Assembly: GCF_900105355.1 (NCBI RefSeq)
Contig: NZ_FNSC01000001.1
Coordinates: forward strand, 4,278,001-4,342,000
Direction of reading: 5' to 3'
Origin: Pseudomonas anguilliseptica
Lineage (GTDB): Bacteria; Pseudomonadota; Gammaproteobacteria; Pseudomonadales; Pseudomonadaceae
Length of the DNA stretch: 64,000 bases
Below are positions 20,049 through 42,505 of the stretch, piece by piece; positions within the stretch are counted from its first letter, which is position 1; every line of letters starts with the position of its first letter. The notes beneath the pieces are model-generated. The model worked only from the letters and a program-made list of their open reading frames with translations. It ran no database searches and was not told where the DNA came from. The position numbers and the translations under genes are program-made.

Positions 20049-21224
20049 CCATGCGTTTCAGGCCGACTTCAGCCTCCGCTGATTTTGAAAGCGGAAAATC
20101 GATCAAAAACGATCATATCATCCGCTTATTTTTGTGTTTTTAGCCGCCGCGAGCACCTCGCGGCGGCTATTGCCCATATTACGGGCGCACCTCTCCTGCA
20201 GTTGCCAGTAAATGTCTGCGTGCCATCCACAGGTTCGACAGCGCAAACAGCGTGACCAACTGCGCCGTGTTCTTGGCCAGGCCGCGGAAGCGCGTCTTCA
20301 CATAGCCGAACTGCCGCTTGATCACCCGAAACGGGTGCTCGACCTTGGCGCGCACCTGGGCTTTGGCCTTCTCGATCTTGCGCTTGGCTTTGTATAGCGC
20401 GCTGCGCTTATCGAGTTTCTTGTAGGTGCTGCGGCGTGCCGCCACCTGCCAGATAACCTTCCGACCCTCATGCTCCGGACGCTTTTCCACACCGGTGTAA
20501 CCTGCGTCGGTACAAACCACGTTCTCGTCGCCATGCAGCAGCTTATCCACCTGGGTGACGTCCGCCACGTTGGCCGCCGTGCCCACCACGCTGTGCACCA
20601 GTCCAGACTTGTCATCCACACCGATGTGGGCCTTCATGCCGAAGTAGTACTGGTTGCCCTTCTTGGTCTGGTGCATCTCCGGGTCGCGTTTACCGTCTTT
20701 GTTTTTGGTCGAGCTGGGCGCATTGATCAACGTCGCATCGACGATGGTGCCCTGGCGCAGGGACAGGCCGCGATCCCCCAGGTAGCCGTTGATCACAGCC
20801 AAGATGCCAGCCGCCAGTTCGTTTTTTTCCAGTACGCGACGGAAGTTGAGGATGGTGGTTTCGTCAGGGATACGCTCCAGGCTCAACCCGGCGAACTGCC
20901 GCAGAATGGTCGTTTCGTACAGCGCCTCTTCCATCGCAGGATCGCTGTAACCGAGCCAGTTTTGCATCAGATGAACACGCAGCATCGCCATCAACGGGTA
21001 CGCCGGGCGACCGCCTTCACCCTTGGGGTAATGTGGATCGATCAGGGCAATCAAGCCCTTCCACGGCACCACCCGATCCATCTCGATCAGGAACAACTCT
21101 TTGCGGGTCTGCTTGCGCTTGCCGGCGTACTCGGCATCGGCGAAGGTCATCTGCTTCATCGGAAAACTCGGTGGGTGGCGTCCGGGCATTTTGCCAAAAT
21201 CAGGAAGACTTATTCAGAGTTTCC
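20033..21224 (-). mobile_element. IS5-family insertion sequence, copy 1
   Basis: It is 1192 bp by comparison with the second copy at 23858-25049, in the opposite orientation. The ends are GGATCCTCTGAAGTAG (left) and GGAAACTCTGAATAAG (right, read inward), sharing TCTGAA. The flanks read CTAA on the left and CTAG on the right, so there is no exact target duplication, unlike copy 2. This suggests an adjacent rearrangement after insertion. The element carries one transposase gene. Confidence 0.85.
20179..21189 (-). CDS. IS5-family transposase, copy 1
   Basis: Encodes 336 residues, full length, with no disruption. The DDE elements are visible: 'IVDATLINAPSS' for the first Asp, 'VCTDAGYTG' for the second, and the C-terminal 'YKAKRKIEKAKAQVRAKVEH' region for the glutamate-bearing part. 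The N-terminal 'FADAEYAGKRKQTRKELFL' is typical of IS5-group enzymes. It differs from the copy at 23893 at roughly 20 positions, so the two are related isoforms rather than recent duplicates. Confidence 0.93.
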   Translation of the reverse strand: MPGRHPPSFPMKQMTFADAEYAGKRKQTRKELFLIEMDRVVPWKGLIALIDPHYPKGEGGRPAYPLMAMLRVHLMQNWLGYSDPAMEEALYETTILRQFAGLSLERIPDETTILNFRRVLEKNELAAGILAVINGYLGDRGLSLRQGTIVDATLINAPSSTKNKDGKRDPEMHQTKKGNQYYFGMKAHIGVDDKSGLVHSVVGTAANVADVTQVDKLLHGDENVVCTDAGYTGVEKRPEHEGRKVIWQVAARRSTYKKLDKRSALYKAKRKIEKAKAQVRAKVEHPFRVIKRQFGYVKTRFRGLAKNTAQLVTLFALSNLWMARRHLLATAGEVRP

Positions 21225-23857: not shown

Positions 23858-25049
23858 GGAAACTCTGAATAAGACTTCCTGATTTTGGCAAAATGCCCGG
23901 ACGCCACCCGCCGAGTTTTCCGATGAAGCAAATGACCTTCGCCGATGCCGAGTACGCCGGCAAACGCAAGCAGACCCGCAAAGAGTTGTTCCTGATCGAG
24001 ATGGATCGGGTGGTGCCGTGGAAGGGTTTGATCGCACTGATCGAACCGTATTACCCCAAGGGTGAAGGCGGTCGGCCGGCCTATCCGCTGATGGCGATGC
24101 TACGTGTGCACCTGATGCAGAACTGGTTCGGCTACAGCGACCCGGCGATGGAAGAAGCGCTGTACGAGACCACTATCCTGCGGCAGTTCGCCGGGCTGAG
24201 TCTGGAACGTATCCCCGACGAAACCACCATCCTCAACTTCCGTCGTCTGCTGGAGAAACATGAGTTGGCTGCCGGCATCCTGGCCGTCATCAATGGCTAT
24301 CTTGGCGACCGTGGCCTGTCGTTGCGCCAAGGCACCATCGTCGATGCCACGCTGATCAATGCGCCGAGTTCGACCAAGAACAAGGACGGCAAACGCGACC
24401 CAGAGATGCACCAGGCCAAGAAGGGCAACCAATACTACTTCGGCATGAAGGCGCACATTGGCGTGGATGACGAGTCGGGGCTGGTACACAGCGTGGTAGG
24501 CACGGCGGCCAACGTGGCGGATGTCACTCAGGTCGACAAGTTGCTGCACGGCGAGGAAAACGTGGTGTGCGCCGATACGGGTTATACCGGCGTCGAAAAG
24601 CGCCCCGAACATGATGGGCGCGAGGTGATCTGGCAGGTTGCTGCCCGCCGCAGCACCTATAAGAAGCTGGGTAAGAGCAGCCCGCTGTACAAAGCCAAAC
24701 GCAAGATCGAGAAGGCCAAGGCCCAGGTGCGCGCCAAGGTTGAGCACCCGTTCCGGGTGATCAAGCGTCAGTTCAGTTATGTAAAGACACGCTTCCGTGG
24801 CTTGGCCAAGAACACGGCGCAACTGATGACGCTGTTCGCGCTGTCGAACCTGTGGATGGCACGCCGACATTTACTGACCAATGCAGGAGAGGTGCGCCTG
24901 TAATGCGGGAAATGGCTGCCGCGAGCTACTCGCGGCGGCTAAAAACACAGAAATGAATGGGTAATCTGATCGTTTTTGATCGATTTGCCGCTTTCAAAAT
25001 CGGCGGGGGCTGAAGTCAGCCAGAAATACATGGCTACTTCAGACCATCC
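23858..25049 (+). mobile_element. IS5-family insertion sequence, copy 2
   Basis: It is 1192 bp, with ends GGAAACTCTGAATAAG (left) and GGATGGTCTGAAGTAG (right, read inward). A direct repeat CTTAG flanks it on both sides (23853-23857 and 25050-25054), which includes the YTAR-type target expected for IS5 elements. It is therefore a clean insertion. Orientation is opposite to copy 1. Confidence 0.9.
23893..24903 (+). CDS. IS5-family transposase, copy 2
   Basis: Encodes 336 intact residues, with the same DDE layout as copy 1: 'IVDATLINAPSS', 'VCADTGYTG' and 'YKAKRKIEKAKAQVRAKVEH'. Substitutions relative to copy 1 are spread over the protein (for example NWFGYS versus NWLGYS, LGKSSPLYK versus LDKRSALYK). 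Both enzymes look active and could mobilise each other's ends, because the terminal repeats are shared. Confidence 0.93.
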   Translation: MPGRHPPSFPMKQMTFADAEYAGKRKQTRKELFLIEMDRVVPWKGLIALIEPYYPKGEGGRPAYPLMAMLRVHLMQNWFGYSDPAMEEALYETTILRQFAGLSLERIPDETTILNFRRLLEKHELAAGILAVINGYLGDRGLSLRQGTIVDATLINAPSSTKNKDGKRDPEMHQAKKGNQYYFGMKAHIGVDDESGLVHSVVGTAANVADVTQVDKLLHGEENVVCADTGYTGVEKRPEHDGREVIWQVAARRSTYKKLGKSSPLYKAKRKIEKAKAQVRAKVEHPFRVIKRQFSYVKTRFRGLAKNTAQLMTLFALSNLWMARRHLLTNAGEVRL

Positions 25050-33180: not shown

Positions 33181-33395
33181 GGACTACCTCCTTTAGTTGT
33201 GCTTATGGGTGAATCGTCTTGTGCAGTTAAGACCAGCATGGCCGCTTACTCAAGCCGTGGGGCTATGTTCAACGGCCGCCTTATCCCTTTAAGTTCTTTC
33301 CATATACTCAAACATCACTTTTGCGCATAACCCTGAGCTGGTATCTTCCTCCGGCTCCGCAGGGAGTGCGCGGCCGTGCGCGCTGATTAGCTGTG
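33181..33395. other. Upstream part of the cysI leader, no gene
   Basis: About 215 bases between the small membrane protein gene and the repeat element at 33396. The AT-rich stretch around 33295-33320 may hold the cysI promoter, but I could not pick hexamers with confidence. Confidence 0.35.
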
Positions 33396-33536
33396 AGAGC
33401 CGGTTTACGATATAGCGAGCTAGAGCCATGCCAGGCAAAAACAGGCGAGGAAGCGCAGTGTACGAGCTGTACATGAGCATTCCGAACCTGTTTTAACGCC
33501 GCAGGGCCGACGCGCAGCAGATCGGAAACGGGTTCT
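33396..33536 (+). repeat. Structured intergenic element, copy A (before cysI)
   Basis: It is 141 bp. The termini AGAGCCGGTTTACGATATAG and GCAGATCGGAAACGGGTTCT are imperfect inverted repeats. Inside, AAAACAGG pairs with CCTGTTTT, GGAAGC with GCATTCC (one bulge), and the central TGTAC-GAGC-TGTACA forms a hairpin, so the whole can fold into one long rod. The core (GCGAGCTAGAGCCATG, GAGCATTCCGA, GGGCCGACGCGCAGCAGA) is shared with copy B at 41551. It ends 24 nt before the cysI ATG. Confidence 0.75.
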
Positions 33537-33560
33537 AAAAGCCTGATAACAGGACACCCC

Positions 33561-35219
33561 ATGTACGTATACGACCAGTACGACCAAAAAATCGTCGAAG
33601 ACCGCGTCAAGCAGTACCGCGATCAAACCCGCCGTTACCTCGCCGGTGAACTGAGCGGTGAAGAGTTCCGCCCGCTGCGCCTGCAGAATGGCCTGTACAT
33701 CCAGCGCTTTGCGCCCATGCTGCGCGTTGCCGTGCCGTACGGTCTGATGTCGTCCGCCCAGGTGCGCATGATGGCCAAGATTGCCCGTGACTATGACAAG
33801 GGTTACGCGCATATCAGCACCCGTCAGAACGTGCAGTTCAACTGGCCGGATCTGGAAGATGTGCCTGACATTCTCGCCGAGCTGGCCACCGTGCAGATGC
33901 ACGCCATCCAGACCAGCGGCAACTGCATCCGTAACACCACCACCGACCAGTTCGCCGGCGTGGCCAAGGATGAAATCATCGACCCACGCCCGTGGTGCGA
34001 GATCATCCGTCAGTGGTCGACCTTCCACCCCGAGTTCACCCACCTGCCGCGCAAGTTCAAGATTGCCGTCAACGGTGCCGTGAGCGACCGTGCAGCGATC
34101 GAGGTGCATGACATCGGCCTGGAAGCGGTACAGAATGACGCCGGCGAGCTGGGCTTCCGCGTCTCCGTCGGTGGCGGTCTCGGTCGTACGCCGATCGTTG
34201 GTAGCTTTATCAACGAGTTCCTGCCGTGGCAGCACCTGATCAGTTACCTCGACGCCATCCTGCGTGTGTACAACCGCTATGGCCGTCGTGATAACAAGTA
34301 CAAGGCGCGCATCAAGATTCTGGTCAAGGCGTTGACGCCTGAAGTCTTCGCCGAGCGCGTCAATGCTGAGTGGGCTCACCTGAAAGATGGCCCGACTACC
34401 CTGACCGACGCCGAAGTCGCCCGCGTTGCAGCGCACTTTATCGACCCAAGCTACAAAGCCCTCGACGATCAGGATGCCGCACTGGCGGCCCTGGATGCCG
34501 AACACCCAGGCTTTGCCCGCTGGCGTCAGCGCAACACCTTCGCCCACAAGACGCCGGGCTATGTCGCCGTTACTCTGTCGCTCAAGCCGACCGGCGTGGC
34601 GCCAGGCGATGTCACCGACAAGCAGCTCGACGTGATCGCCGACCTGGCCGACCGCTACAGCTTTGGCGAAGTGCGCAACAGCCACAACCAGAACATCATC
34701 CTCGCGGATGTCGAGCAGGCGCAGCTGTTCACCCTATGGGGCGAGCTGCGTGAAAACGGTTTTGCTACGCCGAACGTCGGCCTGCTGACCGATATCATCT
34801 GCTGCCCGGGCGGCGACTTCTGCTCGCTGGCCAACGCCAAGTCGATCCCGATTGCCGAAGCCATTCAGCGTCGTTTCGACGACCTGGATTATCTGTTCGA
34901 CATCGGCAATATCGACCTGAACATCTCCGGTTGCATGAACGCCTGCGGTCACCACCACGTTGGCCATATCGGCATCCTCGGGGTGGACAAGAAAGGTCAG
35001 GAGTTCTATCAGGTGTCCCTCGGCGGCAGCGCCGGTCGTGACGCCAGCCTGGCGCAGATCCTCGGCCCCTCCTTCGCCGAAGCGGACATGGCCGATGTGA
35101 TCGACAAGATTATCAAGGTCTATGTCGAGCGCCGCACCGAAGAAGAGAGTTTCCTCGACACCTTCCGCCGTATCGGCGTCGACCCGTTCAAGGAGCGCGT
35201 ATATGCAGCGAATCATTAA
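33561..35219 (+). CDS. cysI: Sulfite/nitrite reductase hemoprotein subunit
   Basis: Encodes 552 residues. The siroheme/4Fe-4S cysteines are present as 'CCPGGDFC' (C-x5-C) and 'SGCMNACGHHH' (C-x3-C). Two ferredoxin-like half repeats and the substrate-binding 'NVQFNWPDLEDV' region are visible. It reduces sulfite to sulfide in cysteine synthesis with electrons from ferredoxin or a flavoprotein. The following DUF934 gene overlaps its 3' end, the standard Pseudomonas arrangement. The structured element at 33396-33536 lies in its 5' leader. Confidence 0.94.
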   Translation: MYVYDQYDQKIVEDRVKQYRDQTRRYLAGELSGEEFRPLRLQNGLYIQRFAPMLRVAVPYGLMSSAQVRMMAKIARDYDKGYAHISTRQNVQFNWPDLEDVPDILAELATVQMHAIQTSGNCIRNTTTDQFAGVAKDEIIDPRPWCEIIRQWSTFHPEFTHLPRKFKIAVNGAVSDRAAIEVHDIGLEAVQNDAGELGFRVSVGGGLGRTPIVGSFINEFLPWQHLISYLDAILRVYNRYGRRDNKYKARIKILVKALTPEVFAERVNAEWAHLKDGPTTLTDAEVARVAAHFIDPSYKALDDQDAALAALDAEHPGFARWRQRNTFAHKTPGYVAVTLSLKPTGVAPGDVTDKQLDVIADLADRYSFGEVRNSHNQNIILADVEQAQLFTLWGELRENGFATPNVGLLTDIICCPGGDFCSLANAKSIPIAEAIQRRFDDLDYLFDIGNIDLNISGCMNACGHHHVGHIGILGVDKKGQEFYQVSLGGSAGRDASLAQILGPSFAEADMADVIDKIIKVYVERRTEEESFLDTFRRIGVDPFKERVYAANH

Positions 35220-41531: not shown

Positions 41532-41550
41532 ACGGCCGAACAGGCCTCAT

Positions 41551-41717
41551 AGAACCCATTCAAAGGCTTGCGAGCTAGAGCCATGCAAGGCGCTACGTAG
41601 TAACAGCCTCCGGCTGGTCAAAACGGCGAGGAAGCGGAGTTTACTTTTGTAAATGAGCATTCCGAGCCTGTTTTTAACGCAGCAGGGCCGACGCGCAGCA
41701 GACTTTGGATACGTTCT
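41551..41717 (+). repeat. Structured intergenic element, copy B (before SDR)
   Basis: It is 167 bp. The termini AGAACCCATTCAAAGGCTTG and GCAGACTTTGGATACGTTCT pair imperfectly with each other; their sequence differs from copy A, yet pairing is kept. AAAACGG pairs with CCTGTTTT (one bulge), and the central TTTAC-TTTT-GTAAA hairpin replaces TGTAC/GTACA of copy A, a compensatory change. An extra about 25 bp (GCTACGTAGTAACAGCCTCC and following) is inserted in the left arm. It ends 20 nt before the SDR ATG. Confidence 0.75.
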
Positions 41718-41737
41718 CAATAAGAAAGGAAAATCCC

Positions 41738-42505
41738 ATGTCCAAAACCCATCTGTTCGACCTCGACGGCAAGATCGCTTTCGTCTCCGGCGCCAGCCGT
41801 GGCATCGGCGAGGCCATTGCCAAACTGCTGGCCCAACAAGGCGCTCATGTCATCGTCTCCAGTCGCAAGATTGATGACTGCCAGAAAGTCGCTGATGCCA
41901 TCATCGCCGACGGCGGCAAGGCCACTGCGATTGCCTGTCACATTGGCGAAATGGAGCAGATCAGCAATGTCTTCGCGCAGATCAAAGAGCAATTCGGCCG
42001 CCTCGATGTGCTGGTCAACAACGCCGCCACCAACCCGCAGTTCTGCAACGTGCTGGACACCGATCTGGGCGCATTCCAGAAGACCGTGGATGTGAACATC
42101 CGTGGCTACTACTTCATGTCCATCGAAGGCGGCAAGCTGATGAAGGCCAACGGTGGTGGCAGCATTATCAATGTGGCCTCGATCAACGGCGTCTCGCCGG
42201 GCGAATTCCAGGGCATCTACTCGGTGACCAAGGCCGCCGTAATCAGCATGACCAAGGTCTTCGCCAAGGAGTGCGCGCAGTTCGGCATCCGCTGCAACGC
42301 CCTGCTGCCAGGCCTGACCGACACCAAGCTTGCCTCGGCCCTGACCAAGAACGACGCCATTCTCAAAGTCGCCCTGCAGCGCATCCCGCTCAAGCGCGTG
42401 GCCGATCCGAGTGAAATGGCCGGCACCGTACTATACCTGGCCAGCGACGCCTCCAGCTACACCACGGGCGTGGCGCTGAATGTGGACGGTGGCTTCCTCT
42501 CCTGA
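41738..42505 (+). CDS. Short-chain dehydrogenase/reductase
   Basis: Encodes 255 residues from ATG 41738, with AAGGAAAA upstream. The cofactor motif SGASRGIGEAIAK is near residue 18, NNAA near 92 and the catalytic YSVTK near 160. The closing 'VALNVDGGFLS' is typical. The basic residue after the glycine motif ('SSRKIDDCQK') suggests NADP(H) preference. It follows the phosphotransferase gene on the same strand after a structured repeat, and is ended by a terminator. Confidence 0.92.
   Translation: MSKTHLFDLDGKIAFVSGASRGIGEAIAKLLAQQGAHVIVSSRKIDDCQKVADAIIADGGKATAIACHIGEMEQISNVFAQIKEQFGRLDVLVNNAATNPQFCNVLDTDLGAFQKTVDVNIRGYYFMSIEGGKLMKANGGGSIINVASINGVSPGEFQGIYSVTKAAVISMTKVFAKECAQFGIRCNALLPGLTDTKLASALTKNDAILKVALQRIPLKRVADPSEMAGTVLYLASDASSYTTGVALNVDGGFLS

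Follow-up and report, generated by a model that had tools for sequence, protein, structure and literature searches.

Within a stretch of 64,000 nucleotides of Pseudomonas anguilliseptica DNA (the window), two short intergenic segments raise the question of whether pairing that is preserved between diverging copies marks a mobile hairpin, a structured nucleic acid, or both. The original prediction held that 33396..33536 and 41551-41717 have blocks in common and that their paired ends are specific to each copy; inspection of the sequence confirms this, together with the change of the central hairpin from TGTAC/GTACA to TTTAC/GTAAA between the copies. The reading developed here, which we consider on balance probable, is that copies A and B belong to a gene-less mobile hairpin of about 140 bp, folded end to end from a single strand and likely moved in trans.

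Two copies in the window and the family around them

The features of the two copies are collected in Table 1. Copy A lies 25 nt and copy B 21 nt upstream of the start codon of the following gene, both in sense orientation and neither at a stop codon; copy B is flanked by ATA on the left and TCA on the right. Apart from the extra 28 nt of copy B, five other copies of the same genome (L010, L011, L016, L021 and L024) have a further segment after GAGCATT, about 57 nt long and containing small hairpins. The window also contains two IS5-family transposases above the NCBIfam cut-off, at 20179-21159 (-) and 23923-24903 (+).

That only two copies might exist, which would have spoken against the original prediction, is refuted. 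R1, a covariance model made from 16 own-genome copies, gives 117 matches in the host genome at E <= 1 and 106 at E <= 2e-5; four of the latter are readings of the same places on the other strand, so that 102 distinct locations remain. In a BLAST search with copy B, where 40 of 111 candidates were scored, at least 68 pieces of the host genome matched. The element measures about 140-235 bp and contains no gene. Among 43 own copies the core identity between nearest neighbours reaches 97.3% at best with a median of 93.6%, so no very recent burst is evident. A second subtype in this genome (L078-L093, L108-L117) combines the same kernel with ends like CAGGCCGTTGAAAAACG. Two copies at C1:224665 and C1:7455 (L007 and L008) are identical, as are their flanks in the stretch shown, and belong to a duplicated region.

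Table 1. Position of the two hairpin copies, their parts and the adjoining genes in the window.
Feature	Position	Strand	Basis
Copy A of the candidate mobile hairpin, 139 bp	33397..33535	+ (as in family model)	Model R1 match 33392-33541 (genome C1:4311392-4311541); limits set by the arms, the TNA flanks and the empty sites
Putative left target copy of copy A, TGA	33394..33396		Sequence; relatives read GCTGTA-type spacers
Putative right target copy of copy A, TAA	33536..33538		Sequence and empty sites in relatives
Kernel hairpin of copy A, near-invariant internal-loop bases	33449..33485	+	Conservation across order and class
Copy B of the candidate mobile hairpin, 165 bp	41552..41716	+	Model R1 match 41547-41722 (genome C1:4319547-4319722)
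Extra 28-nt segment of copy B	41592..41619	+	Sequence comparison; absent from 110-nt-core copies, same segment in several other copies
Kernel hairpin of copy B	41630..41665	+	Sequence and class-wide conservation
Gene downstream of copy A, nitrite/sulfite reductase-like	33561..35219	+	ORF; NCBIfam matches below curated cut-offs
Gene downstream of copy B, SDR family oxidoreductase	41738..42505	+	PRK07035 above its cut-off

The family extends well beyond the host. R1 matches were obtained in 42 of 57 genomes and, with at most 11 candidates scored per genome, in 93 of 276 genomes of the class, representing 77 of 216 genera; both genome counts include the host's own. An exact-kernel scan of named genomes gave at least 119 stretches, and among the 80 kernel matches listed most are from Pseudomonas, the rest including Stutzerimonas, Halomonas, Marinobacter, Thiotrichaceae, Methylococcaceae, Nitrosomonadales and Chromobacterium, as well as one Desulfobacterales MAG and 13 Bacteroidota MAG contigs, with the reservation that single MAG contigs may be wrongly binned. 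Exact kernel matches occur in named Beta-, Desulfo- and Bacteroidota records, and the Bacteroidota copies carry the same kernel between distinct end repeats of their own. Matches are present in 14 plasmid records; phage records gave no family match, nor did E. coli genomes searched with a copy from the class. Rfam yielded 0 matches at gathering score in the window and 0 at E <= 1 in three loci with copies, and text searches with core strings, and with MITE and stop-codon terms, retrieved no describing paper from the open-licence literature. This strongly covarying fold, with matches in a third of the class genomes sampled and in records from Bacteroidota, is without an Rfam match in these searches.

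An end-to-end fold constrained on one strand

Structure beyond chance, as originally proposed, is borne out by fold z-scores, by permutation of the arms and by a MAFFT alignment of 16 copies. As RNA, copy A is predicted to fold end to end at -59.3 kcal/mol (z -5.18, with 0 of 200 shuffles as good), and as DNA the end-to-end fold has a z of -4.28; for copy B as RNA the z is -2.53, with 2 of 200 shuffles as good. Across 60 own copies (from 67 anchor hits, after removal of false or ill-placed ones and re-anchoring of four loci) the 15-nt arms form 606 of 900 within-copy Watson-Crick pairs, against 450.8 +/- 13.1 (maximum 508) when the right arms are permuted 20,000 times. Positions 15-21, outside the arms, have no pairing excess, and the excess stops at the edge of the element. 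In the MAFFT alignment (A1), which was made without structure, 89.3% of cells pair compared with 84.8% after shuffling (0 of 500 as high) and 31-44% when the 3' partners are slid; one of five measures, the number of further pair types in A1, gave no excess (33 vs 32.8).

Covariation involves the whole element. In 102 rows from the own and other genomes aligned to R1, with 88 or fewer columns free to vary, the column pairs that covary most strongly map almost without exception to one end-to-end hairpin; columns 36-114, for example, read CG 47, AT 22, GC 18 and TA 8 times. With the structure fixed beforehand, 27 of the top 30 covarying pairs among 37 copies from other genomes lie on it. Alignments A2-A4 were fitted to R1 and so are biased towards its 38 pairs, and the structure-free A1 agrees with them; the 13 rows of A2 with the lowest scores, in which palindromic copies had been read on the reverse strand, were left out, as were likewise 2 rows of A4. 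Between the variable helices lie loop bases that hardly change (C.AGGC, GA, CG.AG, TGAGCA, GA and AAC), and tandem G-A pairs could form in two of these loops. This whole-element covariation within the genus and beyond supports the structured nucleic acid reading in the original prediction, which holds together with the MITE-like one.

The two strands can be distinguished by their wobble pairs. Read on the + strand, the core helices contain G-T in 97 cells and A-C in 22, the arms 122 and 77, and the core helices of other genomes 39 and 8, where the cells count sequences and not events. Because strand-symmetric mutation would give similar numbers, the preponderance of G-T over A-C points to constraint on a single strand, and by this measure the fold belongs to the + strand, whether as RNA or as single-stranded DNA. 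On contig C1 of the own genome, 64 of 95 places have the element on the top strand and 31 on the bottom (P 0.0009).

Target sites, empty sites and stop codons

The hairpin ends are GAACCTGTTTACGATC or CAGGCYGTTGAAAA. Perfect 3-nt repeats (TNA duplications) at the expected register flank 13 of 60 copies, where 4.2 are expected and the permutation maximum is 11; the other 47 are without a perfect 3-nt duplication. The orthologous position upstream of the same gene lacks copy A in all 12 of 12 genus genomes, of which seven have a short continuous spacer (L096-L099, L102, L104, L105), two a somewhat longer one (L095, L100) and three other sequence (L094, L101, L103). In L094 and L103 other, partly palindromic-looking inserts are found where copy A would be. 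The empty sites suggest that the left target copy of copy A was originally TAA and has undergone one change since. None of the insertion sites of 67 own copies is common to the 41 copies fetched from four relatives, and one site is common to two relatives (L256 in G001 and L276 in G012). In having short length without a transposase gene, terminal inverted repeats, target-site duplications (mostly imperfect) and empty sites, the element corresponds to a MITE, and the MITE-like reading advanced at the outset is accordingly supported by sequence comparison: by the empty sites, by TNA duplications above chance and by the lack of sites common to the own genome and the four relatives. Among the points that weigh against this reading are the many copies without a perfect duplication, the position of both window copies away from stop codons, and arms more variable than expected for the terminal repeats of one transposase. 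In one relative (L259 in G001) two hairpin copies in the same orientation lie about 570 bp apart, and the adjoining stretches are identical over about 130 bp.

Searches by end pattern, by two Pfam families and among neighbouring genes found no mobilising enzyme. One end pattern matched in 15 of 149 genus genomes, at 30 loci; both ends are close together at 19 of these, and of the other 11, 4 have the kernel and 7 lack it, in a search that was not exhaustive. PF13340 and PF01609 gave 40 loci in 13 genomes, none with hairpin ends flanking the transposase; one of them (L232) has a hairpin copy near by. The largest protein cluster beside copies covers 6 of 119 loci, and no neighbouring gene is clearly common to them. 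The 119 matches to PF01609 in the own genome belong mostly to one insertion sequence with ends like GGAAACTCTGAAG and YTAR target copies. This resident IS5-type element was set aside as the mobiliser, since its ends differ from those of the hairpin; likewise, a MITEPsy1-like or other IS5-derived MITE of the resident element would require ends like GGAWRGTCTGAA, which the hairpin does not have. Five loci in relatives (L179, L184, L186, L191 and L193) have the end GAACCTGTTYACGATCTTTA without the kernel, some with REP-like sequence inside, and are perhaps another short repeat with the same ends.

Many copies adjoin the stop codon of a gene. Coincidence was scored when an open frame of at least 80 codons ran towards the element and its stop lay within -3 to +2 nt of the end, with gene context for 67 of the 102 own-genome places. 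The right end falls at a stop codon in 36 of the 67, the left in 10 and either in 39; among 41 copies of the four relatives the numbers are 21, 6 and 24. For 40 resident IS5-type copies with YTAR duplications, taken as a control, they are 5, 2 and 7. The excess over this control (Fisher P 4e-5 in the own genome, 2e-4 in the relatives) and the preference for the right end over the left (P 2.6e-6 and 0.0015) are seen in both sets. A codon-usage gene model gives 33 right and 5 left of 67 for the hairpin, and 1 and 0 among the 40 control copies. As background, a stop codon lies within 2 nt of 3 of the 41 CTNAG sites and 10 of the 101 YTAR sites in non-coding sequence of the window.

For 8 of 12 test genes the loci of relatives were read, and in 27 of 30 the stop codon is at the same aligned position, in genes that are uninserted or otherwise occupied; the three exceptions all concern one gene (L093) that runs two codons further. 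In one relative, the counterpart of the gene with L112 bears a hairpin of another subtype (L296) on its stop codon. At the right end the stop is exact in 36 copies and found only at 6-60 nt in 9, a drop that favours targeting there; the corresponding numbers for the left end are 10 and 20. Insertion into coding sequence also occurs, for in 15 of 67 own copies a frame crosses the right end and terminates within the element. Beyond the genus the coincidence weakens (6 right and 2 left of 27; 5 right and 3 left of 20). In a mixed set of named genomes (119 loci fetched; those places used that had 450 or more flanking bases on both sides and a recognisable end repeat, 27 non-Bacteroidota and 6 Bacteroidota being left out for want of such a repeat), a wider window of -6 to +2 gives 16 right and 14 left of 51 non-Bacteroidota places, with the orientation bias absent, and 0 right and 0 left of 6 Bacteroidota places. 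The stop-codon coincidence is therefore well supported in this genus, and an orientation bias shows only in the host genome and the four relatives. Meeting stop codons precisely would let an element enter genomes without breaking genes and rewrite their 3' ends.

Mechanism, alternatives and relation to known repeats

A transposase encoded by another element is likely to move the hairpin in trans. To judge from the duplications, the outer arms would be the terminal inverted repeats on which an IS5-type DDE transposase with TNA or YTAR targets acts, and the covariation and wobble suggest that the kernel, with its conserved internal loops, may be recognised as a folded single strand, either single-stranded DNA or RNA, at some step of mobility. 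Copies at stop codons may have been targeted there, or may persist there because the gene stays intact. Since the compared copies are hardly ever common to several species, what maintains the fold is probably selection in the course of spreading, not a role for the host at individual sites. A bolder version, which we offer tentatively and think rather doubtful, is a nucleic acid mobile across phyla, whose conserved internal loops let it be recognised as a folded single strand and which integrates at stop codons in a set orientation, guided by the termination of translation or by the message's 3' end. In this family the idea that a mobile element may use its folded strand as substrate can be put to the test.

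The fold could instead be that of a regulatory RNA whose copies spread and are kept paired since transcripts that include them influence adjacent genes through stability, termination or translation, a role that has been suggested for ERIC. The conserved internal loops and the strand-specific wobble are indeed RNA-like, copies A and B stand in sense 5' of genes, and orientation-dependent mRNA stability has a precedent in ERIC (PMC2229807). The selected strand, however, is antisense to the genes ending at the right side (the right-hand gene is on the minus strand in 49 of 67 copies, the commonest arrangement in the own genome), the compared copies are hardly common to several species, and a simple scan of A and B revealed no terminator-like site, so that we consider a regulatory role unlikely; such high-copy hairpins can be mistaken for host regulatory RNAs. 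Covariation might also be a by-product, if template switching in replication corrects quasi-palindromes and both arms change without selection for the fold. Double changes between nearest copies are unexpectedly common (43 vs 89 single), and template-switch correction could also produce them; yet correction would erase the mismatched internal loops, which are the most conserved bases, and it does not predict more G-T than A-C on one strand, which together make this explanation quite improbable.

A folded, strand-specific palindrome in high copy number is reminiscent of REP/REPIN sequences, which a RAYT (Y1) transposase mobilises in the form of single-stranded DNA. Duplicated targets are not expected for RAYT-moved palindromes, but they are present in the hairpin family, and orientation does not differ between the chromosome halves (37/21 and 27/10, P 0.38); we give this origin very little weight. 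Like the hairpin, the GTAG and CGTC families of REP/REPIN are high-copy extragenic palindromes in Pseudomonas, but they are tetranucleotide-tagged and 20-40 bp long, whereas the hairpin has about 140 bp, target duplications and several internal loops, as far as the portions of the source considered here describe them (PMC3733652).

To our knowledge, the sequence of ERIC has nothing recognisably in common with the mobile hairpin favoured here. ERIC (also IRU or RU-1), as described in the sections consulted, is a 127-bp enterobacterial repeat with 7-bp terminal repeats and TA at its ends that affects mRNA stability in an orientation-dependent manner (PMC2229807). It resembles the hairpin as a short non-coding palindrome with terminal repeats, target duplication, a long stem-loop transcript and an effect of orientation, and differs in being enterobacterial and in that those sections mention no stop-codon coincidence (PMC2229807). 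MITEPsy1 of Pseudomonas syringae, likewise a short MITE of a Pseudomonas, is 100 nt long with 18-nt terminal repeats and 4-nt target copies, CTAG or YTAA, is related to the IS5-family ISPsy2 and has been shown to move; its ends, GGAAGGTCTGAAAAAGCC, resemble the resident IS5-type element, unlike those of the hairpin, and the excerpts drawn on report no multi-helix fold (PMC3189936). QMITE1 and QMITE2 of Coxiella are likewise MITEs from Gammaproteobacteria, and for their RNA a long palindromic fold is predicted; in the part of the account used here, QMITE1 is without orthologues in other genomes and covariation analysis of the QMITEs does not feature (PMC5896051).

The original prediction recognised no named family, which holds for Rfam and for text searches with core strings, with one candidate to be added. 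R178 of P. fluorescens SBW25, Pf0-1 and Pf-5 is an intergenic repeat of 101 bp with internal 11-bp inverted repeats, present in 18, 28 and 9 copies, respectively, and the passages available describe neither terminal arms, fold nor position relative to stop codons (PMC2718517). Compared by description alone, R178 could be the same family as the hairpin (PMC2718517).
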